Assembly (NCBI RefSeq): GCF_024699925.1
Contig: NZ_JAJOMX010000001.1
Location: forward strand, 4,688,001 to 4,752,000
Length of the DNA stretch: 64,000 bases
Source: Mesorhizobium sp. J428
GTDB taxonomy: Bacteria; Pseudomonadota; Alphaproteobacteria; Rhizobiales; Rhizobiaceae
Reading direction: 5' to 3'
In this document: piece after piece, positions 46,123 to 57,497 of the stretch
How positions within the stretch are numbered: the stretch's first letter is position 1
How the letters are laid out: each line of letters begins with the position of its first letter
Notes under the pieces: model-generated
Databases searched by the model: none
What the model was told of the DNA's origin: nothing
Seen by the model: the letters and a program-made list of their open reading frames with translations, nothing else
Program-made: the position numbers and the translations under genes

Positions 46123-47052
46123 TCAGGTTTCCGACAGGATCTTGTCGGCCGCGGCCTTCAGGATCTGCAGGGCTTCCGGGCGCGGCTCGCCGTAGACGAG
46201 ATGCGGCCGGGTCGCGCGCCGGAACTCCTTGCCGCGAACGGTGCGATATTCGGCAAGATAGTCGCGCATCTCGTCAGGCATCTGCTCTTCGGGTCGATTT
46301 GTCATGATACCACCGTGGAACTGGTGGAACGTCGCCTCACCGAACAGGCAGACGATGCGCAGATCCGTCAGTTCGCAGACGCGGTTGTAGAAATCGAGAT
46401 TGGCGAGGCCGCCGCCGCGGATGACGAAGCCCGCATCCATGCCGCCCAGCCTGTCCCAGGTCTCGCGCGGCATTGAGATGAGGTTGCTTTCGGCCAGCGG
46501 CTCCAGCCAGCCGCCGCCGCTCGACGGCGCGAGCGCCCCGATCTCGAACAGCCGATAGCCGTCCTGCGGCCAAGCGATCGACGCAAGCAGGCCGTCCTCG
46601 ACGGTGCGGTCGTAGCCCCGCGTCATGGTGCGGAACTGCACGTCCGGGCCGAGATGCAGCGCGATAGTGGTCACCGCGGCCGGCCGGAATGCTTCGAGCG
46701 CCTCCAGCGTGCGTGCAACGATGCCAGGCGTCGCCATGCGAGCGCCGTCGATCATGGCGCCTATGTTCGGCGCGATCGCCAGCGAGGCGCCGTGGTTCAC
46801 GGCGCCGACGGGCGAGGGCGCCGCATTGGCGATGTAGGTGTAGCGAAAGTTCGGGCCGATGGCCGCCACGGCTGCCGGGTCCAGCGGCTCCGTCGATCCG
46901 TTCTCGACCACGATCACCTCGTAGTCGCCGGCAGAGACGCCCTGCTGGTAGGCAGCGGACAGCGAATGAAGCGTGCGCGGCGCCTCGCGCCGCATGTTGT
47001 AGACGACCACGACTATCGACAGGCGGGGCGAAGCGGATGGAGGCGTCGTCAT
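46123..47052 (-). CDS. Glycosyltransferase family 2-like protein
   Basis: A 309-residue GT-A protein: LSIVVVVYNMRREAPRTLHS LS, DYEVIVVENGSTEPLDPAAV, GASLAIAPNIGAMIDGARMA (the metal-binding region, here IDG) and a C-terminal part with RLGGMDAGFVIRGGGLANLD FY resembling acceptor-domain motifs. It is the last gene of the six-gene minus-strand operon and overlaps the preceding sulfotransferase-like gene by four bases. Confidence 0.87.
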   Translation of the reverse strand: MTTPPSASPRLSIVVVVYNMRREAPRTLHSLSAAYQQGVSAGDYEVIVVENGSTEPLDPAAVAAIGPNFRYTYIANAAPSPVGAVNHGASLAIAPNIGAMIDGARMATPGIVARTLEALEAFRPAAVTTIALHLGPDVQFRTMTRGYDRTVEDGLLASIAWPQDGYRLFEIGALAPSSGGGWLEPLAESNLISMPRETWDRLGGMDAGFVIRGGGLANLDFYNRVCELTDLRIVCLFGEATFHQFHGGIMTNRPEEQMPDEMRDYLAEYRTVRGKEFRRATRPHLVYGEPRPEALQILKAAADKILSET

Positions 47053-47753
47053 CGGGCCAACTCCTGCAGCCGCGCATAGGTGTCGGCGAGATGAGAGGGG
47101 AGGGCGCGGGCTTCCTCAACGGTCTGATGCCGCAGATTGTTGTCGTAGAAGCGGGCGGCGGCCTCGGGATCGGGCAGTCCGAGCGCGGCGGCGATCCGCG
47201 TCACCGCACTCAGATATGCGTCGCCATGCCGGTCATAGCTGATGAGGCGGACCGGGAAGCGGGCCGCCACCCGCACCAGCCGCTCGTTGTAGGCGCGCCA
47301 CAATTCGAGGCCCTCGTCGATGGACAGGCTTGGATCGCGGCTGTTGAGCGACTGCGCCACGGCCAGCGGATGGCGGAAGCTCGCGGCGATTTCGACTGGC
47401 CCGAGCACGTTGAGCCATCCGTCGAGCGTGAGCAGCGTGCGCGGGTCCTTGAAGCCCCAGGCGCCTTGGCCGGCGATCGCGGCGGCGACTTCCGCGCCTT
47501 TCCGCATCTGCTCCGCGGACCAGACGACGTCCTGCGGCGGCTCGCGCCACGATCCGCCGTTCGATGCCAACACCTCGTCGTTCATATGCATCACGGCGAG
47601 GTTCTCGCGATTTCCCTTGGCGTTATACATCGCCTGGGTGTTGACCTCGCCCGAAATGAGCCCGGCGGCCTGCAGGCAGCCGGCCAGACAACTGGTGCCG
47701 GATCGATGCATGCCGAGGATCAGCATCGGCCTGCCGGGCAAGGGTTCGGTCAT
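47049..47753 (-). CDS. Sulfotransferase-like protein
   Basis: A 234-residue P-loop protein. The 5'-phosphosulfate-binding motif is MLILGMHRSGTSCLAGCLQA AG, and the 3'-phosphate region may be FKDPRTLLTLDGW and SFRHPLAVAQSLNSRD. These are the hallmarks of the PAPS-dependent sulfotransferase superfamily. Its stop overlaps the GT2 gene and its start overlaps the next sulfotransferase-like gene, each by four bases, so the three are translationally coupled. The acceptor is unknown, probably a glycan. Confidence 0.82.
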   Translation of the reverse strand: MTEPLPGRPMLILGMHRSGTSCLAGCLQAAGLISGEVNTQAMYNAKGNRENLAVMHMNDEVLASNGGSWREPPQDVVWSAEQMRKGAEVAAAIAGQGAWGFKDPRTLLTLDGWLNVLGPVEIAASFRHPLAVAQSLNSRDPSLSIDEGLELWRAYNERLVRVAARFPVRLISYDRHGDAYLSAVTRIAAALGLPDPEAAARFYDNNLRHQTVEEARALPSHLADTYARLQELAR

Positions 47754-48730
47754 GGTTGGCTTCTCAATTCGGATTGCGGCGGAAGGTCGCCATCTTCGAG
47801 AACCATGAACGGTCCGGCTGCTGACATAGCAAAGCTCATAGTGCCCGCCGGTCTGTCAGCCAAGTTAGGATCTGCGCAAGAATGGCCTCCTGCCGATCGT
47901 TGAGGGGGCATGATGCCCTGCGCAACAGCCAGGTTCGCCTTGTTCCTGAGCAAAGCAGCATCGTGCTGTCTTGCGTAAAGAAGAAGACCGTTATGATCGG
48001 TATGGAGCACGTTTTGGACCACGGCGAGGAACTGCGAACGCTGCTGTTCCGTGAGGCCCTTGCCGTTCACCTGCCTCACGATTTCAACAACATCGTCCGA
48101 AACCGAGACATGAACTTTCTGAAGCGGCGCGAACGTCGGCAAAGTGGTAATTCCGGCCACTTTGATGAGGTCGCTCAGCCAGTCGCCCTCGTATTTCGAA
48201 ACGACGACATCCGCAGCGCCGTATTTGACCGACAGATCGCTGGCCAGCCTGTCATAGTCTGCAAGCCGTCGTGTCCTCTCAAGCGCCGAAAACTCGTTCA
48301 AATTCAATGACGTTGCGTAGTTGAACCGAAGGATCGGCGGATTTAGTACAGCCTGCTTGTAGTATGATTTGAGAAAGAACTCCTTGTCGCGCACGACCAG
48401 GAAAATCCGAACGGCGAAGCCGTGAAGAGCTGTCCTGAATTCCTCGAGAGCCCCGTCCGAGAAATCGTAGAGATGGTTCGTAAGACCTTCCGTCGTGAGT
48501 ACGACAGTCTGCTCCGTCGTGTTCTGGAGAGCTTCCCGCATCCGGTTCGCATGGCCCGAGAACAGATCCTCGACGATATACTGATGTTTTGGAGATATCG
48601 AACGCGAATCGGGAGGCGGGTAGGCGATGCCGTCAGCAAGGAAGTTCTCCCTGTTGCGATAGCACCAGTCCTGAAGTGCTGACGTGCCGGTCTTTGGAAG
48701 ACCGACGTGAATCACGGCTTTTCGTGTCAT
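47750..48730 (-). CDS. Second sulfotransferase-like protein
   Basis: A 326-residue protein with the sulfotransferase P-loop variant VIHVGLPKTGTSALQDWCYR NR, then TVVLTTEGLTNHLYDFSDGA and the 3'-phosphate-type motif RIFLVVRDKEFFLKSYYKQA V. It is clearly distinct from its smaller neighbour. GC is visibly lower than in the surrounding housekeeping genes. The C-terminal 50 residues (after GIMPPQRSAGG) look like an extension without homologous motifs. Confidence 0.78.
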   Translation of the reverse strand: MTRKAVIHVGLPKTGTSALQDWCYRNRENFLADGIAYPPPDSRSISPKHQYIVEDLFSGHANRMREALQNTTEQTVVLTTEGLTNHLYDFSDGALEEFRTALHGFAVRIFLVVRDKEFFLKSYYKQAVLNPPILRFNYATSLNLNEFSALERTRRLADYDRLASDLSVKYGAADVVVSKYEGDWLSDLIKVAGITTLPTFAPLQKVHVSVSDDVVEIVRQVNGKGLTEQQRSQFLAVVQNVLHTDHNGLLLYARQHDAALLRNKANLAVAQGIMPPQRSAGGHSCADPNLADRPAGTMSFAMSAAGPFMVLEDGDLPPQSELRSQP

Positions 48731-48743
48731 TTGCCGTTCGATC

Positions 48744-49676
48744 TCATCTAAGCCAGTGCGGATTGAGGAACTTGTCGTAGTGCGGCGCCACAGAGTCCAG
48801 CCGTCTGATGACCGCCTTGGCCTCCTCTATCGAGGCGTTGAGATTTCTGACCGCGTCCGTCATCGAAGGATGCAGGCCGTTTGTCGTCAAATTCCTGTTC
48901 TCGTCGAAAGATTCGGGGAAGGACGGTATGTGCCCGGTCGTCAGGTGAAACGCACTCGGGCTCTGGAACTCCTTCATCGAATAAAGCGTCATGTTCAACT
49001 GTGGGGGAAAGAACTCAACGTCCTCGCCAAGCTGTTCCATGGCAAGCGCAAAGCCCACCTGATCCACATGAACATGCCAGCGTTCGAGGAGATCACGGTT
49101 CTCGATCAGCCATTTGGCCCACCGCCTCCAAGTCAAGGCAAGGCTCAAAGATCTGCCGGATGGCGCGGCGACGATACCGGCCGAGATGTTGTTGATGTGC
49201 GTCTCGCGCTCGTTCTCCGCGCCCGGGAAAAGGGATGATCCCGGCCGGTATTCCCCAACGCCGGCTCTGCTCAGTATCGACTTGAAGATGCGCGAAGGCG
49301 GGTTGCAGTGATTGTTAGGTCCTGCGCGGTATCGTAAGGCTTTCAGGTATACCGATACATCCGACACAAAATACAGATCGCAATCGGACACGATCACCCA
49401 GTCGGATTCGTGCTGATCGAAGAACGGCCCGATCTTGTTGCAATGCGGAGAGCCGTCAACGATTGGGGTACTGACTATGGTCGCGACGCCTTGCGTCCGA
49501 ATCCATTCGATCAGATCAGCCGGCAAATCGCCGAACGTATATACCTTGATCTGATCCCCGGCTTTCGCCGCGTATCTCGTTGCACAGATGACCCAGAGAA
49601 TGACCTCGACATACAGGCGCGGCTGCTGGTCAAGGGCGCAACAAAACGTGATGCTCTTCGAGTGCGACGTCCTCAT
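48744..49676 (-). CDS. Putative glycosyltransferase (GT-A-like, DxD motif)
   Basis: A 310-residue protein. ITFCCALDQQPRLYVEVILW and IKVYTFGDLPADLIEWI open an apparent nucleotide-sugar fold; SDWVIVSDCDLYFVSDVSVY carries a DxD-type SDCDLYF motif; HVDQVGFALAMEQLGEDVEF FP is like the acceptor-side block of polysaccharide glycosyltransferases. I cannot name a family with certainty. It lies in the low-GC part of the operon, 13 bases before the sulfotransferase gene. Confidence 0.65.
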   Translation of the reverse strand: MRTSHSKSITFCCALDQQPRLYVEVILWVICATRYAAKAGDQIKVYTFGDLPADLIEWIRTQGVATIVSTPIVDGSPHCNKIGPFFDQHESDWVIVSDCDLYFVSDVSVYLKALRYRAGPNNHCNPPSRIFKSILSRAGVGEYRPGSSLFPGAENERETHINNISAGIVAAPSGRSLSLALTWRRWAKWLIENRDLLERWHVHVDQVGFALAMEQLGEDVEFFPPQLNMTLYSMKEFQSPSAFHLTTGHIPSFPESFDENRNLTTNGLHPSMTDAVRNLNASIEEAKAVIRRLDSVAPHYDKFLNPHWLR

Positions 49677-49720: not shown

Positions 49721-50809
49721 TTACTGCGGCTTTCTCAACCGTTCTATCTCGGCCGTCAGCTGGTCCTGGGTCGATTTAAGCTGCGAAATGTAGATGTGAG
49801 CTTTCTCGAGCTCGTGCAGAATCCCCTCGACCTTGCGCGTCAAATCCATGGGTTCTCCCTCCGGCGTCGATCCGACGGCGGGGAGATACTTCTGCGAGAA
49901 CATGAACTCCTTCTGTTCCTCGATCGACGGAATCTCGAAATCCGGCTCGAAGACACGATCGCAGCCGACACTACAGCTTCCGCTGGTGGTGATCGAACCC
50001 GGAATAATCAGGTTGCCCGCGCTCGTCAGGCGGAATTGATTGATCCCGAGCCCGTCATAGGTAATTCGAAACTCGTTGGTATTCGTGTTGAAGTTCAGTC
50101 GGACTGGATTGGGTTGCGAACCTGAGTCGAGGCGAATTGCGACGGGGCCCGTAGTTCGCCTGATGTGGAGCGTATCTGCCGGGCTGCCCGTGCCTAAGCC
50201 CACGTTTCCGGTCGCAGCGATGTCGATCGAACTCGTCGGCGCACCGGGACGGATGCGGAACGGCAGCCTGCTGCCCGTGGTCACGTCGCGAACGAAGAAA
50301 TTCGCCTCGTTGCCGGCGACGTCCCAGGTCTGCGCCGTGAAGCCGCCGGCGTTGGTCTGCTCCAGGCGCATTGCGGGCGTATTGCTCGTCGTCACATGAA
50401 GGTCAAGCACGGGTGTAGCCGTCCGGAAGCCGACGCGGCCCGTCGAGTCGACGAACACGGAGTTCGCCGGTGCCCCGGCAGTGAATGTTGCAATTCGCTG
50501 GCCGGAAGTGAAGTCCAGAATGCCGAGGAAATTGGCGCCGCCGCTTGCGCTGTCGTTCGCAACGATCTGCCAGTCATTCGCCGGAAATGCACCTACCGAG
50601 GTGTCGTCGAATTCGATCCGGGTATTGTTCTCTTTCAGCCGTATTGTAGCGAAGCCGAAGCTTTCGTTGTTCACGCAGTCGAAACCGGCGCAGATGCTGC
50701 CCTGAACGATCAGGTCGTCCGGGATCACTTGGTCCGCGCGCGCGGCGGAACTTGTTGCGAGTGCGATGGCCAGAGCGGCGGTGCCGGCTGCAAGATCATA
50801 TCTCTTCAT
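49721..50809 (-). CDS. Secreted fibre-like protein with C-terminal coiled coil
   Basis: A 362-residue protein with a signal peptide (MKRYDLAAGTAALAIALATS SAARA), a long series of short beta repeats of tail-fibre/adhesin type (VFVDSTGRVGFRTATPVLDL HV, IAATGNVGLGTGSPADTLHI RR), then RVFEPDFEIPSIEEQKEFMF and LTRKVEGILHELEKAHIYIS QLKSTQ, a heptad coiled coil. The end resembles the trimerising tails seen in phage tail-fibre or peptidase S74-like proteins, but the catalytic S74 dyad is not evident. It is second in the operon, followed by the glycosyltransferase and sulfotransferase genes. Confidence 0.72.
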   Translation of the reverse strand: MKRYDLAAGTAALAIALATSSAARADQVIPDDLIVQGSICAGFDCVNNESFGFATIRLKENNTRIEFDDTSVGAFPANDWQIVANDSASGGANFLGILDFTSGQRIATFTAGAPANSVFVDSTGRVGFRTATPVLDLHVTTSNTPAMRLEQTNAGGFTAQTWDVAGNEANFFVRDVTTGSRLPFRIRPGAPTSSIDIAATGNVGLGTGSPADTLHIRRTTGPVAIRLDSGSQPNPVRLNFNTNTNEFRITYDGLGINQFRLTSAGNLIIPGSITTSGSCSVGCDRVFEPDFEIPSIEEQKEFMFSQKYLPAVGSTPEGEPMDLTRKVEGILHELEKAHIYISQLKSTQDQLTAEIERLRKPQ

Positions 50810-50831: not shown

Positions 50832-51287
50832 TTACCGCGCCGTCCCTTCCGTCATGTTGGACGTGTCAACGATCCGGCCGCCCTTGACCAGGAATGATCC
50901 GGACATCGCCGCCGGGACATGCACCGACATTTCGCCGCGCATGTTCACCTGGCTCGCCGGAATGTCGCGCCCGTCCGCGCCATCGGCCTTGACGGCCTTG
51001 GTCTTCGGCGAAGCCGCCGTGATCTGGTAGGTGTAGACGCCGTCGCCCATCGCATTCTGGCCGGAGATGTCGATCACCGGCGAGCCCTGCTTGGCGGATG
51101 CGGTGAGAACCCTGCCATCAGGACCCGCGACCGACAGAGTCGCATTGAAATAACCTGCGGGCAGGACGAAGCTGACCTTGGTTCCGGCCGAGGCACTGCG
51201 CGCGCTCATGACCTCGTCCGCAAGCGCCGGTATGGCAAGACACGCCGCCACCGCCGCCAAGGCTGCAACGCGAATGGAATGTCTCAT
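50832..51287 (-). CDS. Secreted protein of unknown function heading the fibre/sulfation operon
   Basis: A 151-residue protein: signal peptide MRHSIRVAALAAVAACLAIP ALA, then a single Ig-like beta domain (KVSFVLPAGYFNATLSVAGP DGRVLTA, VIDISGQNAMGDGVYTYQIT AASP), and a C-terminal strand set ending SGSFLVKGGRIVDTSNMTEG. GGGGGAGGTC immediately before the ATG at 51287 is a strong ribosome site. It is 22 bases before the fibre-like gene and probably its partner at the surface. No known function. Confidence 0.68.
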   Translation of the reverse strand: MRHSIRVAALAAVAACLAIPALADEVMSARSASAGTKVSFVLPAGYFNATLSVAGPDGRVLTASAKQGSPVIDISGQNAMGDGVYTYQITAASPKTKAVKADGADGRDIPASQVNMRGEMSVHVPAAMSGSFLVKGGRIVDTSNMTEGTAR

Positions 51288-51467
51288 GACCTCCCCCATC
51301 TTCGCCGACATGACGCACAAGCAGCGTCGAATCCCGATCCGAACCTAACCCCACGTAAAATTAGCACTGCACGGGCATGCCGTTCAAGCGCGAGATGCAC
51401 GATTTCTCGGTATCCGGACACACGTCCGGAGAGCGCAATTAAACGCGCGCGACAGCCCGCGCGACCG

Positions 51468-51496
51468 TTGTGTCGTTGCGTAAGCTTGGATAGCAT
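51468..51496 (+). promoter_or_regulatory. Possible sigma-70-type promoter for the permease-VCBS gene
   Basis: TTGTGT (51468-51473) and TAGCAT (51491-51496) are separated by 17 bases, 35 bases upstream of the 51532 start. The 244-base divergent region also has a CCGGAC-ACAC-GTCCGG hairpin at 51414-51429. Assignment is by consensus only. Confidence 0.35.
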
Positions 51497-51531
51497 TTGC
51501 GCGCAGGAAGACCAAGCCGTTGGGGGGCAGG

Positions 51532-54500
51532 ATGGGCTCGTTCGTTATCCGGCCGTATGAGAAGCGCTTCGTCCTGAGCCTGATACTGGTCGCGCTGCTC
51601 GCGATCCAGTTCTGGACCCAGTCGCGCTACCCCTCGCTGAACGAGAAAGCGATGATGAGCGGTGCGATCCAGCTCGAGGATCCGCTGAGCTTTGAGGCAA
51701 AATATCCGCTGAAGCCTGAATACACCACCATGCAGCGGATCGGCTATTCGACGCTGAACTGGATCGAGACCAATCGCAAGGGAATGACCTTCGGCATCCT
51801 GTTCGGCGCCGCCTTCCTCACCCTGATGGGCTATGTGCGCCAACATTCTTTCAAGGGCCGCTTCGCTAACTCTCTGCTCGGCATGGGAGTGGGCGCGCCG
51901 CTCGGCGTGTGCGTCAACTGCGCGGCGCCCATCGCCAAGGCGCTCTATTCCGGAGGGGCGCGCGCCGAGGCGACGCTGTCTGCCATGATCGCCTCGCCGA
52001 CGCTCAACGTCGTCGTGCTGACGATGATCTTTTCGCTGATGCCCTTCTATGTCGGCGTGCTGAAGGTGGCTCTGAGCATCTTCGTGATCCTCGTGGCGGT
52101 GCCCGTCATCTGCCGCTTCCTGCCGGAGAACCAGCTCAAGGTGTCGTCTGCGCCGGAGAAATTCCTGCGCATGCCCAAGCCTGCTCAAGCGGGAACGACC
52201 GAGAACCTCTTCCAGTCGATATGGCGTTTCGCCTGGGATTTCGCGAAGAGCCTGTGGTTCATCGTCTCCCGCACGCTGCCGCTGATGCTGCTGGCCGGCT
52301 TCCTCGGCGCGGTGGTGGCGACTCTCGTGCCGCCGGAAACCTTCTCCGGCCTCAGCTTCGGCTTCGTCACCGTCTTCCTCGCCGCGCTGCTCGGCACCTT
52401 CCTGCCGGTGCCGATCGGCTTCGACGTCGTCGTGTCGGGCGCGTTGCTCGGCGGCGGCATGGATGTCGGCCTGGTGATGACGCTGCTGTTCACGCTGGGT
52501 ATCTTTTCGGTCTACTCCTTCTTCATCGTCGCCGGCGCGATCTCGCTCCGCGCCGCCTCGCTGCTCGCGGGCACCATCGTCGCCATCGGCACGCTGGCCG
52601 GAATAGGGGTTCACTACTACCATCACTATCTCCAGAGCCGGGCACTGGAGATCCTCACCTCCTTCGAGATCCGTCTCGTCTCCTCGGCACAGGCCGCGGA
52701 GCCCGAAGAGGTGCGCAGCCTCGCAGACGGCGCCAACACGATCACCGTCTCGCGCCGCGCCTTCGAGCCGCGCTCGGCCCCGAGCGAAAAGCGTTTCGCC
52801 AAGACGGAAGCGTGGAAGCTCGGCATCGACCAGCCGGTCGAGTTCTCCTTCGGCGACATGTGGCCGCCCTTCTGGGAGGGGCGGGGCATTACTGCCGGCG
52901 ACTGGGACAATGACGGCTGGCAGGACATCGCCATCGCGTCCACTCTCGCGGGAGTCCATTTCTACCGGAATGCCGGCGGAACATTCGAAAAGGCCGCCTT
53001 CGACATCGGCGAGATCGCCAAGATGCCGGTCTTCAACGTCGCCTTCGTTGACATGGACAATGACGGCTGGCTCGACCTGTTCTTCACCACGTTCCGGCAA
53101 GGCAACTATGTGCTGCGCAACACGGGTGGATCGTTCGCGGCGGCAAACCTGTCGCAGGTCGCAAACCGCGACGACGCCGTCCTGACGCTCGCGGCCAGCT
53201 TCGGCGACGTCGACCGAGACGGCTATCTTGACGTCGCCCTGGGCAATTGGGCGGCGGGCTGGTATCGACGCATCCCCGGTACCGAGGCGACGAACCGCGT
53301 CGTCTTCAACAAGGGCGGTGTGCTGGACGGTTCCGCCTTCTCGGAGCTTGCCGGCCCGCCGGGCGAGACGCTTTCGATCCTGCTCACCGACTTGAACCTC
53401 GACGGCAAACTTGATCTTCTCGAGGGCAACGACTTCGAGATGCCCGATATCTTTTCTCTCGGCGACGGCACCGGCGCGTTCAGGCCGATCCGCCGCCAGG
53501 ATAATGTCATCCCGATGACGACGCAGACGACCATGGCGTTCAAGACCGCCGACCTCGCCAATACCGGCCGGCAGGACATTTATGTCGGCCAGATCGCCGG
53601 GCGCTCGTCGGGCATTGCTACCAAGCTCAGGACCCAGCCGCTTGAACTCTACTGCGCCGGCATCGGGCGCGAGAGCGACAAGGCGATCTGCCGGAAGAAC
53701 ATGGCGATCAAGGAGTGGTACAAGTCCGGCCACAGTTTCGACCCGTCCAATGCCTCGCGCTGTGCCCAATTGGACGAACCGGACCGCTCGGAATGCCGGG
53801 CGATGCTGGTGAAGGACCTTGCCATCCAGAGCAAGGATCCCTCGATATGCGACCTTATTGCCATGGCGCAGGTGAGGGCGCGCCAGCTTTGCGAAATCCA
53901 TTTCCGGCCGATCCGGCAGCCGGTGCAGGCCGAGTTCGACGAAGCGATCCCGCAGATCCAGCGCCGCAACGTGCTCCTGTCGCCAAAGGCCGACGGCACG
54001 TACGAGGAGCACGCCGTGCCGGCCGGCGTCGAGATCGGGGGGTGGACCTGGGACGTGAAGGTCGAGGATGTGGACAATGACGGCTGGAAGGACATCTATG
54101 TGCTGAACGGCACGTGGATCCCGAACGAGATCAGTCCGTCGAAGATCCTCTTCGTCAACGACGGCACCGGGAAGTTCAAGGAGGAGACGGTCGCCGCCGG
54201 CATGGAGGATTACCTGATCACCGCCGCCGCAGTGGCGATCGATCTCGACAATGATGGCGACCAGGACTTCATCACCGTGCCGGTGAACGGCCCGCCGATG
54301 GCCTATATCAACGGTTCGGCCGAGGGCAATTCGATCGCCTTCGAATTCCGCGACAGCGTCGGCAATCGCTACGGCATCGGCAACCGCATCGAGATCGGCA
54401 CGGCCGACGGCCTGACCCAGATGCGCGAATTGCAGAGCGGCGGCGGCTTCATGTCGTTCGACGCGCCGGTGCTGCATTTCGGCGCCGGCGAGGCCCGGCG

Positions 54501-54612
54501 CATCGAAAGCGCGAAAGTCCACTGGTCCACGGGCGAGACGACGGTGCTCGACGGCGGTCTCCACACCGGCGCGCTCTATCGCATCGCCCGCGAGGGGACG
54601 GCGACGCGCTGA
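51532..54612 (+). CDS. Permease-FG-GAP/VCBS-UnbV (ASPIC) fusion protein
   Basis: A 1026-residue membrane protein. Residues about 1-370 contain about eight to ten helices resembling the DUF318/ArsP-like permease family, with GMGVGAPLGVCVNCAAPIAK ALYSGG (Cys about 127 and 130). After an AQAAEPEEV linker comes a soluble beta-propeller with six calcium-type DxDxDG loops at about 457 (DWDNDGWQD), 507, 558, 620, 846 and 905. Between loops four and five is an insert with six cysteines (about 705-786). The last ~90 residues are a UnbV/ASPIC-like domain (SAKVHWSTGETTVLDG). The ATG at 51532 follows GGGGGG. It diverges from the six-gene operon. A transporter coupled to a Ca-stabilised extracytoplasmic propeller is inferred. 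Confidence 0.85.
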   Translation: MGSFVIRPYEKRFVLSLILVALLAIQFWTQSRYPSLNEKAMMSGAIQLEDPLSFEAKYPLKPEYTTMQRIGYSTLNWIETNRKGMTFGILFGAAFLTLMGYVRQHSFKGRFANSLLGMGVGAPLGVCVNCAAPIAKALYSGGARAEATLSAMIASPTLNVVVLTMIFSLMPFYVGVLKVALSIFVILVAVPVICRFLPENQLKVSSAPEKFLRMPKPAQAGTTENLFQSIWRFAWDFAKSLWFIVSRTLPLMLLAGFLGAVVATLVPPETFSGLSFGFVTVFLAALLGTFLPVPIGFDVVVSGALLGGGMDVGLVMTLLFTLGIFSVYSFFIVAGAISLRAASLLAGTIVAIGTLAGIGVHYYHHYLQSRALEILTSFEIRLVSSAQAAEPEEVRSLADGANTITVSRRAFEPRSAPSEKRFAKTEAWKLGIDQPVEFSFGDMWPPFWEGRGITAGDWDNDGWQDIAIASTLAGVHFYRNAGGTFEKAAFDIGEIAKMPVFNVAFVDMDNDGWLDLFFTTFRQGNYVLRNTGGSFAAANLSQVANRDDAVLTLAASFGDVDRDGYLDVALGNWAAGWYRRIPGTEATNRVVFNKGGVLDGSAFSELAGPPGETLSILLTDLNLDGKLDLLEGNDFEMPDIFSLGDGTGAFRPIRRQDNVIPMTTQTTMAFKTADLANTGRQDIYVGQIAGRSSGIATKLRTQPLELYCAGIGRESDKAICRKNMAIKEWYKSGHSFDPSNASRCAQLDEPDRSECRAMLVKDLAIQSKDPSICDLIAMAQVRARQLCEIHFRPIRQPVQAEFDEAIPQIQRRNVLLSPKADGTYEEHAVPAGVEIGGWTWDVKVEDVDNDGWKDIYVLNGTWIPNEISPSKILFVNDGTGKFKEETVAAGMEDYLITAAAVAIDLDNDGDQDFITVPVNGPPMAYINGSAEGNSIAFEFRDSVGNRYGIGNRIEIGTADGLTQMRELQSGGGFMSFDAPVLHFGAGEARRIESAKVHWSTGETTVLDGGLHTGALYRIAREGTATR

Positions 54613-54715
54613 GACCTCCTGGCGGTGAAACAGTTTGCGATGCCGGCATGGATCGTCTGGCCGTGAGCGGATATAGCCGGTGTGGTGAGCCGCAACCCGG
54701 CTCGAGAGGAACCGA

Positions 54716-56250
54716 ATGAAGTCCATCCGAAGCGCCGTCGGCGTCGCATTGCTCGTCCTGACCGCCGTCGCGCTGCCGTTCCCGGTGCTGGCGCAGCAGG
54801 CTGCCGTGTCTCAGGCTGCGCCGACTATGGCGGACTCGGAAGCCGCTTACGCGGCTGGCGACTACGACAAGGCGATCCAGATCGTGCGCGTGCTCGCGGA
54901 AGCCGGCGATGCGCTTGCCCAGTATCGGCTGGGCTACATGACCGCGCTTGGGCAGGGCACCGAAAAGGACCTGAACGCGGCGGCCGGCTGGTTCCGCAAG
55001 GCGGCCGATCAGGGCGAGCCGGCCGCGCTGCTGCAACTCGGTGTCTTCCATATTCAGGGATCGGGCGTCGAGCGAAGCGAGACCGAGGCGGCGCGCCTGT
55101 TCAAACTCGCCGCGGAGAAGGGGAACACCTTGGCGCAGCTCTATGTCGGCCAGATGTATCTCGTCGGCGCGGGCATCGAGAAGAACGAGGTCGCAGGGCT
55201 GACATGGATCATGTCGGCCGCCCGTGCGGGCAATGCGGAGGCCCAGTTCAAGCTCGGCACGATCTACGCCACTGGCGAGGGCGCCACGAAGGACGCGAAG
55301 GAAGCGCGCAAATGGTTCGAGCTCGCCGCCGAGAGCGGGCTCGCCAGCGCCCAGTACACGCTGGCGGGCAATCTGATGGCGGGCACCGGCATCGAGAAGG
55401 ACAAGGCGAAGGCGCGCGAATGGTATCGCAAGGCCGCCGAACAGGGCATGCCGGCAGCGCAGCGCGACCTCGGCGCGATCTATCTCGCCGGCATCGACGG
55501 CAAGCCCGACTACGCGCTTGCCTATGAATGGACCAGGAAGGCCGCGGATGCCGGCGACGCGGGCGCGCTGAGCAATCTCGGCTACATGTATTATTCCGGC
55601 AAGGGCGTTCCGCAGGACGACCAGCGCGCGGCGGAGGCCTACGGCAAGGCGGCCGAAAAGGGGCTGGCTCGATCCGCCACGGCACTCGGCGCGCTCTACG
55701 AGGCGGGCAGAGGCGTGGAGAAGAGCGATGAGAAGGCGGCGGAGTGGTACGCAAGGGTGCGCTCGGCGGGGACCGCAACGCGCTCGCCAGGCTCGTCGCG
55801 CTGATCGTCGGCGAACGGGCCAGACTCCAGGAGGCAGACGCCGCGCTGTGGGTCGCGCTCGCGGCAAAGGGCGGCGACGCGGCGGCGCGCTCATGGCTGG
55901 AAGCCAAGGCCGGCGGCTCGGCCGCGGCAAAATCGAGGCTGGCGGAACTCGTCGACTCGGAGACCAAGGACGCCGCCGGCGATGCGCGGGCGGTCGCGCT
56001 CTATCTCGAGGCGGCCGGAGCTGGAGACGGTCTGGCGCAACTGGCGCTCGCCAGGAAGTATGCGGCCGGCGAAGGGGTGGACCAGGATTATGTCGCCGCG
56101 CACCAGTGGGCCAACATCGCCGCGACCGACGGCAACGAGGATGCCGTCAAGCTGCGCGATAATCTGTCGAAGCTGATGACGCGCGAGCAGATCGCGGACG
56201 CGCAGAAAAAGGCACGGGAATGGACCGCCAAGGCGCGCGACGGCGGCTGA
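54716..56250 (+). CDS. Secreted Sel1-repeat protein, frameshifted near 55752
   Basis: A Sel1/TPR-like repeat protein of about 511 residues after repair. A signal peptide (MKSIRSAVGVALLVLTAVAL ... VLAQQ) is followed by about ten 36-residue repeats with A-xx-LGxxYxxGxGVxxD and WYRKAAEQGxxxAQ patterns. At EKAAEWYA one base is missing (TACGC-AAG), after which KGALGGDRNALARLVALIVG continues and the C-terminal repeats follow. Such repeats mediate protein-protein contacts in the periplasm. It is the first of two tandem Sel1 genes, about 100 bases after the permease-VCBS gene, and overlaps the second. Confidence 0.8.
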
Positions 56251-57497
56251 GGCGGGCAGGGCCGTTCGCGGCGGCCGTGCTCCTGCTTGCCTTGGTCACA
56301 GCATTTCCCGCCCGCGCGGAAACGGTCGAGCGCGCGGCGGCCCTCCTCGACGCCGGCGAGGTGATGGCGGCGATACGGATCATCGAGCCGCTCGCGAAAG
56401 CGGGCGATGCCTCCGCCGAATATCTGCTCGGCAGGACCCATCTCGACGGGATCGGCGTGCCGCAGGATTTTACCACGGCGGCCCGGTGGATCGCGAGAGC
56501 CGCCGAGAAGGACGACGCCCGCGCCCAGAACCTGCTCGGCCGCCTCCATGCGCAGGGCCTGGGGGTGGAACGGGATACTGCGGCCGCCGCGCGCTGGATG
56601 AGGCGCGCGGCGGAAAAGGGCGATCCAGTCCACCAATACGATCTCGGCATCCTTCTCGACGATGCGGGCATGGGCGCGCAGGACAGGCAGGAGGCCGTAC
56701 GCTGGTTCGAAGCCGCGGCTGCGCAAGGTCATGCGCCCGCGAAGACCAGCCTCGGCCTCGCCTATCAGCAGGGCGCAGGCGTCCCGAAGGACTTGGCCCA
56801 GGCGGCACGGCTCTTCGGCGAAGCGGCCGATGCTGGCGATGCGCGCGCCCGCAACAATCTCGGCCTGATGCTTGCCCGTGGCGAGGGCGTGCCGCAGGAT
56901 TATGAGGAGGCCGTCGAACTCTTCCGCAAGGCGGCTGCGCAGGGCCAGTCCCAGGCGATGTACAATCTTGGCGTCATGTACGAAAACGGTTTCGGCATCG
57001 ACCGCGACGAGGCGAAAGCCAGGGAGCTTTACGCGCAGGCCGGACGCACCGGTGGCGACAGCGCCACCGACGCCGTATCGGAGAGCGGATTGCTTTATGA
57101 CGCGCGGCTCCAGCCGCTCGACATGACGAAAGCACGCGCCGAAGATTTCGCCGCGGCGGCCGGAAGCGGCGACCCGATCGCGATGTTCCTGGTGGGCTAT
57201 GTCGAGGCAATGGACGAGACACAGGGGGGCGGCGCGGGTCGGGCAGCTGGATGGTTCGAAAAGGCCGCCGGACTGGGTCTGCCGGCGGCGATGGCCAATC
57301 TCGGCCTTCTCCACATCCGCGGCCGCGGCGTGCCGCAGGATTACGTGGTCGGATATATGTGGCTCAACCTCGCCGCCGCCGCCGGGCTTGCCGAGGCAGC
57401 CATGCTGCGCGACCGCGTCGGCGCCACCATGACACCGGCACAGCTCGCCGAAGCGCGCGAACTCGTCGAGAGCAGATGGCAGGCGATCCGCAAGTAG
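56220..57497 (+). CDS. Secreted Sel1-repeat protein
   Basis: A 425-residue protein. An Arg-rich signal peptide (FAAAVLLLALVTAFPARAET) precedes roughly nine Sel1 repeats (AEYLLGRTHLDGIGVPQDFT TAARW, LGLMLARGEGVPQDYEEAVE LF, MYNLGVMYENGFGIDRDEAK AREL), ending in GYMWLNLAAAAGLAEAAMLR D. The ATG lies inside the end of the preceding gene in another frame (31-base overlap), so it is likely translated by coupling. It is a diverged paralogue of its neighbour. Function unknown. Confidence 0.88.
   Translation: MDRQGARRRLRRAGPFAAAVLLLALVTAFPARAETVERAAALLDAGEVMAAIRIIEPLAKAGDASAEYLLGRTHLDGIGVPQDFTTAARWIARAAEKDDARAQNLLGRLHAQGLGVERDTAAAARWMRRAAEKGDPVHQYDLGILLDDAGMGAQDRQEAVRWFEAAAAQGHAPAKTSLGLAYQQGAGVPKDLAQAARLFGEAADAGDARARNNLGLMLARGEGVPQDYEEAVELFRKAAAQGQSQAMYNLGVMYENGFGIDRDEAKARELYAQAGRTGGDSATDAVSESGLLYDARLQPLDMTKARAEDFAAAAGSGDPIAMFLVGYVEAMDETQGGGAGRAAGWFEKAAGLGLPAAMANLGLLHIRGRGVPQDYVVGYMWLNLAAAAGLAEAAMLRDRVGATMTPAQLAEARELVESRWQAIRK

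Follow-up and report, generated by a model that had tools for sequence, protein, structure and literature searches.

The fusion gene and its domains

The 64,000-nucleotide stretch analysed here (the window) comes from Mesorhizobium sp. J428 (contig NZ_JAJOMX010000001.1, positions 4,688,001 to 4,752,000 of the forward strand) and contains a gene in which a membrane permease is joined to a soluble propeller. The open reading frame (ORF) at 51532-54612 on the + strand runs without interruption from an ATG at 51532 to a stop at 54612 and encodes 1026 amino acids. Three Pfam families match the protein: ArsP_1 (PF03773) at residues 108-358 with 63.5 bits, which passes the gathering cut-off of 32.3, FG-GAP_3 (PF13517) in five stretches with 109.9 bits (cut-off 26.9), and UnbV_ASPIC (PF07593) at residues 948-1007 with 52 bits (cut-off 23.4). 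The original prediction for this locus, that one uninterrupted frame joins a permease to a propeller and an ASPIC domain, is confirmed by the ORF and by these matches above the cut-offs. Six Dx[DN]xDG loops are recognised by eye, starting at residues 457, 507, 559, 620, 846 and 904, with a degenerate loop at 674. Six cysteines (708, 720, 744, 755, 773 and 787) lie between good loops four and five. The loops, the cysteine-rich insert and the CVNC motif are all in the places first described for them. The layout of the gene is as follows.

51532..54612, + strand: fusion gene, ArsP_1/YraQ-type permease, FG-GAP propeller, six-cysteine insert and UnbV/ASPIC domain (ORF, Pfam, conserved fusion)
51532..52701, + strand: membrane half, residues 1-390, transmembrane segment 1 followed by two units of four elements, one segment in each unit being broken (re-entrant) (PF03773, models, elevator-type matches, YraQ alignment)
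51910..51921, + strand: CVNC motif, C127-C130, where the first hairpin breaks (conservation, YraQ alignment)
52405..52416, + strand: PVPI, residues 292-295, where the second hairpin breaks, with the invariant D298 after it (alignment, model)
52705..53601, + strand: propeller part one, residues 392-690, with a degenerate loop after four good Dx[DN]xDG loops (Pfam, model, match to CRTAC1 9etn_A)
53617..53943, + strand: helical insert, residues 696-804, with six invariant cysteines (alignments, model)
53971..54366, + strand: end of the propeller, residues 814-945, with the last two Dx[DN]xDG loops (Pfam, model)
54373..54552, + strand: UnbV/ASPIC domain, residues 948-1007 (Pfam)

The model of the membrane half is closest to elevator-type transporters with two re-entrant hairpins and places CVNC at the tip of one hairpin; the absence of a family from the fold-comparison listings does not exclude that family. 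The membrane half therefore looks like a true transporter, in keeping with the transporter-like character first assigned to it, and transport is its predicted activity. The permease alignment, run as a profile against solved structures, gave no match (best E 0.19).

The host genome has one full copy of the fusion, which is also its only ArsP_1 gene. An antisense frame (51439-54726, - strand, 1095 amino acids) is longer than the fusion gene and spans all of it, but the domains and the conservation sit on the + strand and the antisense frame is probably a by-product of high G+C. The sequence SSAQA-AE (about residues 384-390), which follows the last helix and resembles a signal-peptidase site, was considered as a place of release and not used, since its conservation is partial.

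Conservation, distribution and exchange of the membrane half

Relatives of the fusion were found at 199 places in GTDB genome contigs (loci carry L numbers and genomes G numbers). The best 80 were kept, at 49-89% identity and most of them spanning the whole query. An alignment of 79 rows consists of the query and 78 full-length loci. It leaves out loci with fewer than 985 amino acids (L060, at a contig end; L080, L081 and L082; L087, in three ORFs; L096), repeats of counted loci or of the window (L001, L054, L091, L092 and L095), L094 (G039, a genome of the same family, 45% identity), and L067 and L093, which run off their contigs and have no ORF called. Genomes G030, G129, G114 and G077 are taken as the same records as L003, L080, L005 and L067.

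Cysteines C127 and C130 and all six insert cysteines are present in 79/79 rows, and a ninth, C194, in 67/79. The CxNC pair is found in all 24 ArsP-type rows of a wider alignment; L053 has the variant CANC. A 35-row alignment has DMWPPFWEGR as an invariant segment and NGTW-PNE and GGGFMS-DA as nearly invariant ones. Compared with L003 (Mesorhizobium, the nearest relative), the dN/dS ratio is 0.029/0.659 = 0.044 for permease residues 1-390 and 0.074/0.598 = 0.124 for the remainder of the protein, the propeller. The fusion gene is conserved and is under purifying selection. An artefact would have been indicated if all close relatives had lacked the fusion and carried the halves as separate genes. 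This is not so: the same-genus genome G030 (the L003 contig) has the whole fusion at 89% identity. The presence of the fused form in 78 further loci and the purifying selection rule out an assembly or frame artefact.

The occurrence of the fusion is patchy. It is found in 6/151 genomes of the host's family and in 19/195 sampled genomes of the order of G215. A phylum sample has a match at E 1e-15 in 8/398 genomes, three of which match in the ASPIC part only and two of which are RnfD-type (see below). The gene lies on at least eight plasmids (eight records, with at least 80% coverage), where the annotation reads only 'FG-GAP-like repeat-containing protein' and hides the permease. The Parasedimentitalea marina plasmid pW43A has two copies (L087 and L114), each over three annotated ORFs. 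L053 and L054 are two copies of a locus about 95 kb apart on one metagenome-assembled contig, for which an assembly duplication is possible. In G129 (L080/L109), of the same genus, only a part matching residues 640-1026 is found. It lies within a frame of 794 amino acids that begins differently from the query, and matches to the permease, fam2 and the fibre are missing beside this partial copy (fam2 and the fibre are neighbouring genes described below).

Two genomes from two other classes, G167 (L099) and G151 (L100), have the propeller-ASPIC module after an NQR2/RnfD/RnfE domain (PF03116; 43 and 38.6 bits vs a cut-off of 27.7). This type was seen only at these two loci, and its inserts contain four cysteines. 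A tree of the propeller half, with the insert removed, places the two RnfD-type rows as sister to the 24 ArsP-type rows (99/96 for both together, 88/77 for the ArsP-type rows). The rows of CRTAC1 (four) and UnbV (one) are separate from both fusion types; the root is weak because long branches meet there. The tree suggests that the membrane half was probably exchanged once. G519 was considered as a third RnfD-propeller fusion and rejected, as the RnfD-like protein there is a stand-alone one within the stretch read.

Neighbouring genes and secretion contexts

ORF clustering revealed a recurring cassette around the fusion, and tblastn searches of 79 loci (the best 80 without L054) gave the counts. 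The linkage counts are based on the 55 of these loci that have full 10-kb flanks; the queries were drawn from the same loci that were counted, and the counts have no random-locus baseline. The fusion of the window stands between fam3 and fam2 on one side and two Sel1 genes on the other, all five in a row, with glycosyltransferase- and sulfotransferase-like genes beyond. These neighbours are as follows.

50832..51320, - strand: fam2, a small protein with a signal-like N-terminus by eye, conserved beside the fusion (51/55 full-flank loci; no Pfam match)
49721..50809, - strand: fam3, a fibre-like protein with, by eye, a signal-like start and a coiled-coil-like end, and with a conserved CxGxDC cysteine pair (46/55 full-flank loci; no Pfam match in the window copy)
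54716..55804, + strand: Sel1-repeat protein, immediately downstream of the fusion (PF08238, 204.1 bits)
56220..57497, + strand: second Sel1-repeat protein (PF08238, 192.3 bits)
48744..49676, - strand: glycosyltransferase-like protein by eye (no Pfam match; relatives beside fusion genes in L057, L030, L019 and L029)
47750..48730, - strand: sulfotransferase-like protein by eye, N-terminal region with LPKTGTSALQ (no Pfam match; relatives in L057, L030, L029 and L019)
47049..47753, - strand: sulfotransferase-like protein (PF13469, weak, 19.6 bits vs a cut-off of 27)
46123..47052, - strand: family 2 glycosyltransferase (PF00535, 32.4 bits vs a cut-off of 23.3)

Besides fam2 and fam3, the full-flank loci have Sel1 genes (51/55) and a prepilin peptidase (33/55), and 51/55 combine Sel1 with fam2 or fam3. 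The fam3 proteins are about 360-400 amino acids long, and C40 and C45 are present in 72/78 rows with gaps in the remaining rows. One fam3 relative bears a Peptidase_S74 end, and the annotation of two reads tail fiber domain-containing; from sequence, these proteins look like secreted fibres. L077, L069 and L059 have several fam3 genes each, which looks like a multiplication of the cargo. The fam2 protein has no conserved cysteine. The first Sel1 protein has 362 amino acids in the window vs 534 in L003 and L080. A second frame at 55744-56250 has more weak Sel1 similarity, and the first Sel1 gene (54716-56250) may be interrupted here. Both Sel1 proteins give partial matches to MerG (phenylmercury resistance) below the NCBIfam cut-off (105.5 and 115.5 of 350 bits), most likely through the Sel1 repeats. 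A sulfotransferase was considered as a common factor and is too weak alone (19/55 full-flank loci).

Genes of the type II secretion system (T2SS) are frequent in the fusion's own clade. At least three T2SS-type genes are present in 34/55 full-flank loci, which is also the number with any such gene. L026 is the sole full-flank locus without Sel1, fam2, fam3 and T2SS genes. The GspD and GspK representatives have the Pfam domain, and GspG and GspE match host-genome proteins with T2SSG and T2SSE; the remaining letters were assigned by gene order and by the annotation of L086 and may be swapped. In G077 the T2SSG match stops about 100 bases upstream of the fusion match. T2SS genes are not adjacent to the fusion in the window itself. 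The host has a T2SS locus about 0.85 Mb from the window (C1:3.886-3.895 Mb), with matches to T2SSE, T2SSM_b, PilN, secretin, T2SSG and A24. Elsewhere in the host genome a second secretin is matched in two pieces (G000:C1:2769931-2770456). An initial search of the host genome with the GspK family gave no match. Within the host's family (151 genomes), 4/6 carriers of the fusion have T2SSG vs 20/145 non-carriers (one-sided Fisher p 0.006, with three of the six carriers in one genus and on the assumption that both counts drew the same 151 genomes). Therefore, T2SS is neither unique to carriers nor present in all of them.

More distant fusions have a different setting. A fused protein is also carried by f13, another bacterial family of the same class, in 9/296 genomes of the order. 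L098, whose ArsP_1 match is barely above the cut-off (37.8 vs 32.3 bits), is 39-91% identical to the other eight, and all nine proteins have CVNC and the six insert cysteines. HprK-like, sulfotransferase, PqqD and Asn-synthase-like genes lie within about 8 kb in 6/9 members, and B2 in 4/9; none of these lasso-like genes is present in the stretches examined of G748, G772 and G700. The NCBIfam models applied to G538 pass for B2 (84.4 vs 33) and fail for the cyclase (240.8 of 525) and PqqD (62.5 of 80). G167 also has a lasso-like gene set, and an ABC exporter is present in the clusters of both G167 and G538. No lasso-like genes were seen in G151, where the contig stops just behind the gene. Matches to AsnB, PqqD, HprK and B2 number 0/79 in the loci of the window's own clade.

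A first motif search for precursor peptides found nothing convincing. Each of the six f13 genomes has, among its cluster genes, a small ORF whose leader contains W-x-x-P and which ends in a C-terminal serine; G167 has two. These ORFs are candidates only, since seven other ORFs in the 11 loci scanned fit the pattern and the pattern was built after the first candidates.

L107:9307-9450, L128:8034-8177, L129:11735-11887, L133:3455-3598: candidate precursor peptides (W-x-x-P leader, C-terminal serine)
L134:5761-5892, L135:5443-5574, L105:6963-7157, L105:7597-7791: candidate precursor peptides (same pattern)

The survey of gene neighbourhoods that had been suggested gives a context beyond the original prediction, namely recurrent fibre, fam2 and Sel1 genes, often with T2SS, and lasso-like genes in distant relatives. 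The RnfD-like alternative to the membrane half also lay outside that prediction.

Possible function and comparison with known systems

The favoured explanation, proposed here tentatively, is that the fusion is an inner-membrane transporter-propeller which serves the maturation or export of secreted polypeptides. The N-terminus of the protein would be cytoplasmic and the propeller periplasmic, and the surface receptor that had been considered is not supported. The insert cysteines may be paired as disulfides. The re-entrant hairpins, with CVNC and PVPI at their tips, could form a site that binds a small and probably thiol-seeking ligand (a metal ion, for example, or a sulfur compound), and the permease would carry this ligand to the periplasm by an elevator-like motion. 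The propeller and its cysteine arm might then receive the ligand or dock the exported polypeptide, and the ligand would be used in folding or finishing before release. Release may occur by type II secretion in the window's clade and by the ABC exporter in the lasso-like clusters.

The main rivals of this export or maturation role are a docking scaffold and a redox relay. The permease may now be mainly an anchor, with the propeller serving in the periplasm as a platform to keep cargo close to the secretion machine. Propellers often bind proteins, the same propeller is carried by two different membrane domains, and the linkage to secretion genes is tight. However, the permease is the more constrained half of the protein (0.044 vs 0.124) and keeps its hairpin cysteines in all 24 ArsP-type rows, which is more than an anchor would need; a scaffold of this kind is somewhat doubtful. 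It is rather unlikely that the membrane half carries electrons or thiol equivalents, passed from CVNC to the cysteine arm, so that disulfides are made or broken in exported polypeptides such as the fibre. The invariance of CxNC and of the six insert cysteines would suit such a relay, as would the C40/C45 pair of the fibre, and the alternative membrane half is of the NQR2/RnfD/RnfE type, a family known for redox complexes. Nevertheless, the membrane model resembles solute transporters, both CVNC cysteines are within one hairpin, and there is no thioredoxin-like domain among the Pfam matches. Moreover, fam2 has no conserved cysteine and the lasso-type candidate peptides have none at all.

Uptake or self-protection, in which a secreted product is bound by the propeller and then imported or expelled through the permease, is improbable. 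The relatives beside peptide-type biosynthetic clusters and an architecture that points to capture of a ligand on the inner membrane's outer face are consistent with it, but the fibre is far too large for the permease and the lasso-like clusters of G167 and G538 already have an ABC exporter. Efflux of metals or metalloids, by a pump like ArsP or SO_0444, is very improbable. The membrane half does belong to PF03773, and the permease has some similarity, weak and partial, to the SO_0444 Cu/Zn efflux family (NF033936) and to SaoE, but the scores of 28.4 and 24.5 bits are far under the cut-offs of 300 and 325. In addition, no arsenic or metal-resistance Pfam families were found among the 20 window proteins scanned (of about 66 candidate ORFs; 44.1-57.5 kb), and the conserved neighbourhood concerns secretion. 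The DUF318/ArsP-like label is right for the domain family, but arsenic efflux as a role is without support here.

Each half of the protein is known separately, and the joined form is apparently undescribed. A permease joined to a CRTAC1/UnbV propeller was not found in the open-licence literature searched, and neither were the cysteine arm, the secretion and peptide contexts or the exchange of the membrane half. The transporter-propeller is a candidate new part of the type II secretion and fibre cassette, and also of lasso-like peptide clusters.

The closest known counterparts resemble the fusion in parts. The permease aligns with Escherichia coli YraQ over 324 profile columns (probability 97.7, E 2e-12), with CTCCAAP of YraQ on CVNCAAP. 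However, identity in the alignment is 19%, and the fusion adds a periplasmic module of about 630 residues and a conserved FWTxSRYP segment. The propeller matches the murine CRTAC1 structure 9etn_A and has the CRTAC1 fold together with PF07593 and FG-GAP, but 9etn has no joined permease and the fusion has the extra six-cysteine helical insert. Lasso clusters that contain an HPr-type kinase acting on a C-terminal serine, a nucleotidyltransferase and a sulfotransferase are described in a review (PMC8498205). Such a set surrounds the fusions in G538 and G167, and much of the same lasso-type gene set is found in four more f13 genomes besides G665. In contrast, the B1 (PqqD), B2 and cyclase neighbours are missing from the 79 loci of the window's own clade.

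The pair UnbU and UnbV, which we take to be the enediyne genes E5 and E4, is a further counterpart. In Streptomyces clavuligerus the protein in the UnbV position is propeller-ASPIC-like (profile match E 1e-17) and is adjacent to the UnbU gene. The L099 RnfD half is 28% identical to S. clavuligerus UnbU over 240 columns in a two-sequence comparison (E 1e-14). A stand-alone Metabacillus RnfD-like protein, beside a redoxin gene, scores higher against the same half (96 vs 68 bits); therefore the link to UnbU rests on its pairing with UnbV and not on the closest similarity. The window protein differs from the pair in having ArsP_1 instead of the RnfD-like half, and S. clavuligerus UnbV is without the cysteine insert. 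No polyketide synthase was found among the 20 window proteins scanned or in the annotation of five plasmid loci. The gene order in S. clavuligerus is DUF1702, propeller, UnbU, polyketide synthase and thioesterase, which fits the E3/E4/E5/E/E10 cassette given as common to all enediynes in PMC5181780. It is a speculative possibility that the fused proteins and the split UnbU-UnbV pair are one general machine, in which an interchangeable ArsP- or RnfD-like transporter is wired to a UnbV-type periplasmic propeller and finishes a ribosomal peptide, a fibre or a polyketide at or beyond the membrane. If this is true, the fused form in tractable alphaproteobacteria would let the role of E4/E5 be tested outside the enediyne producers.

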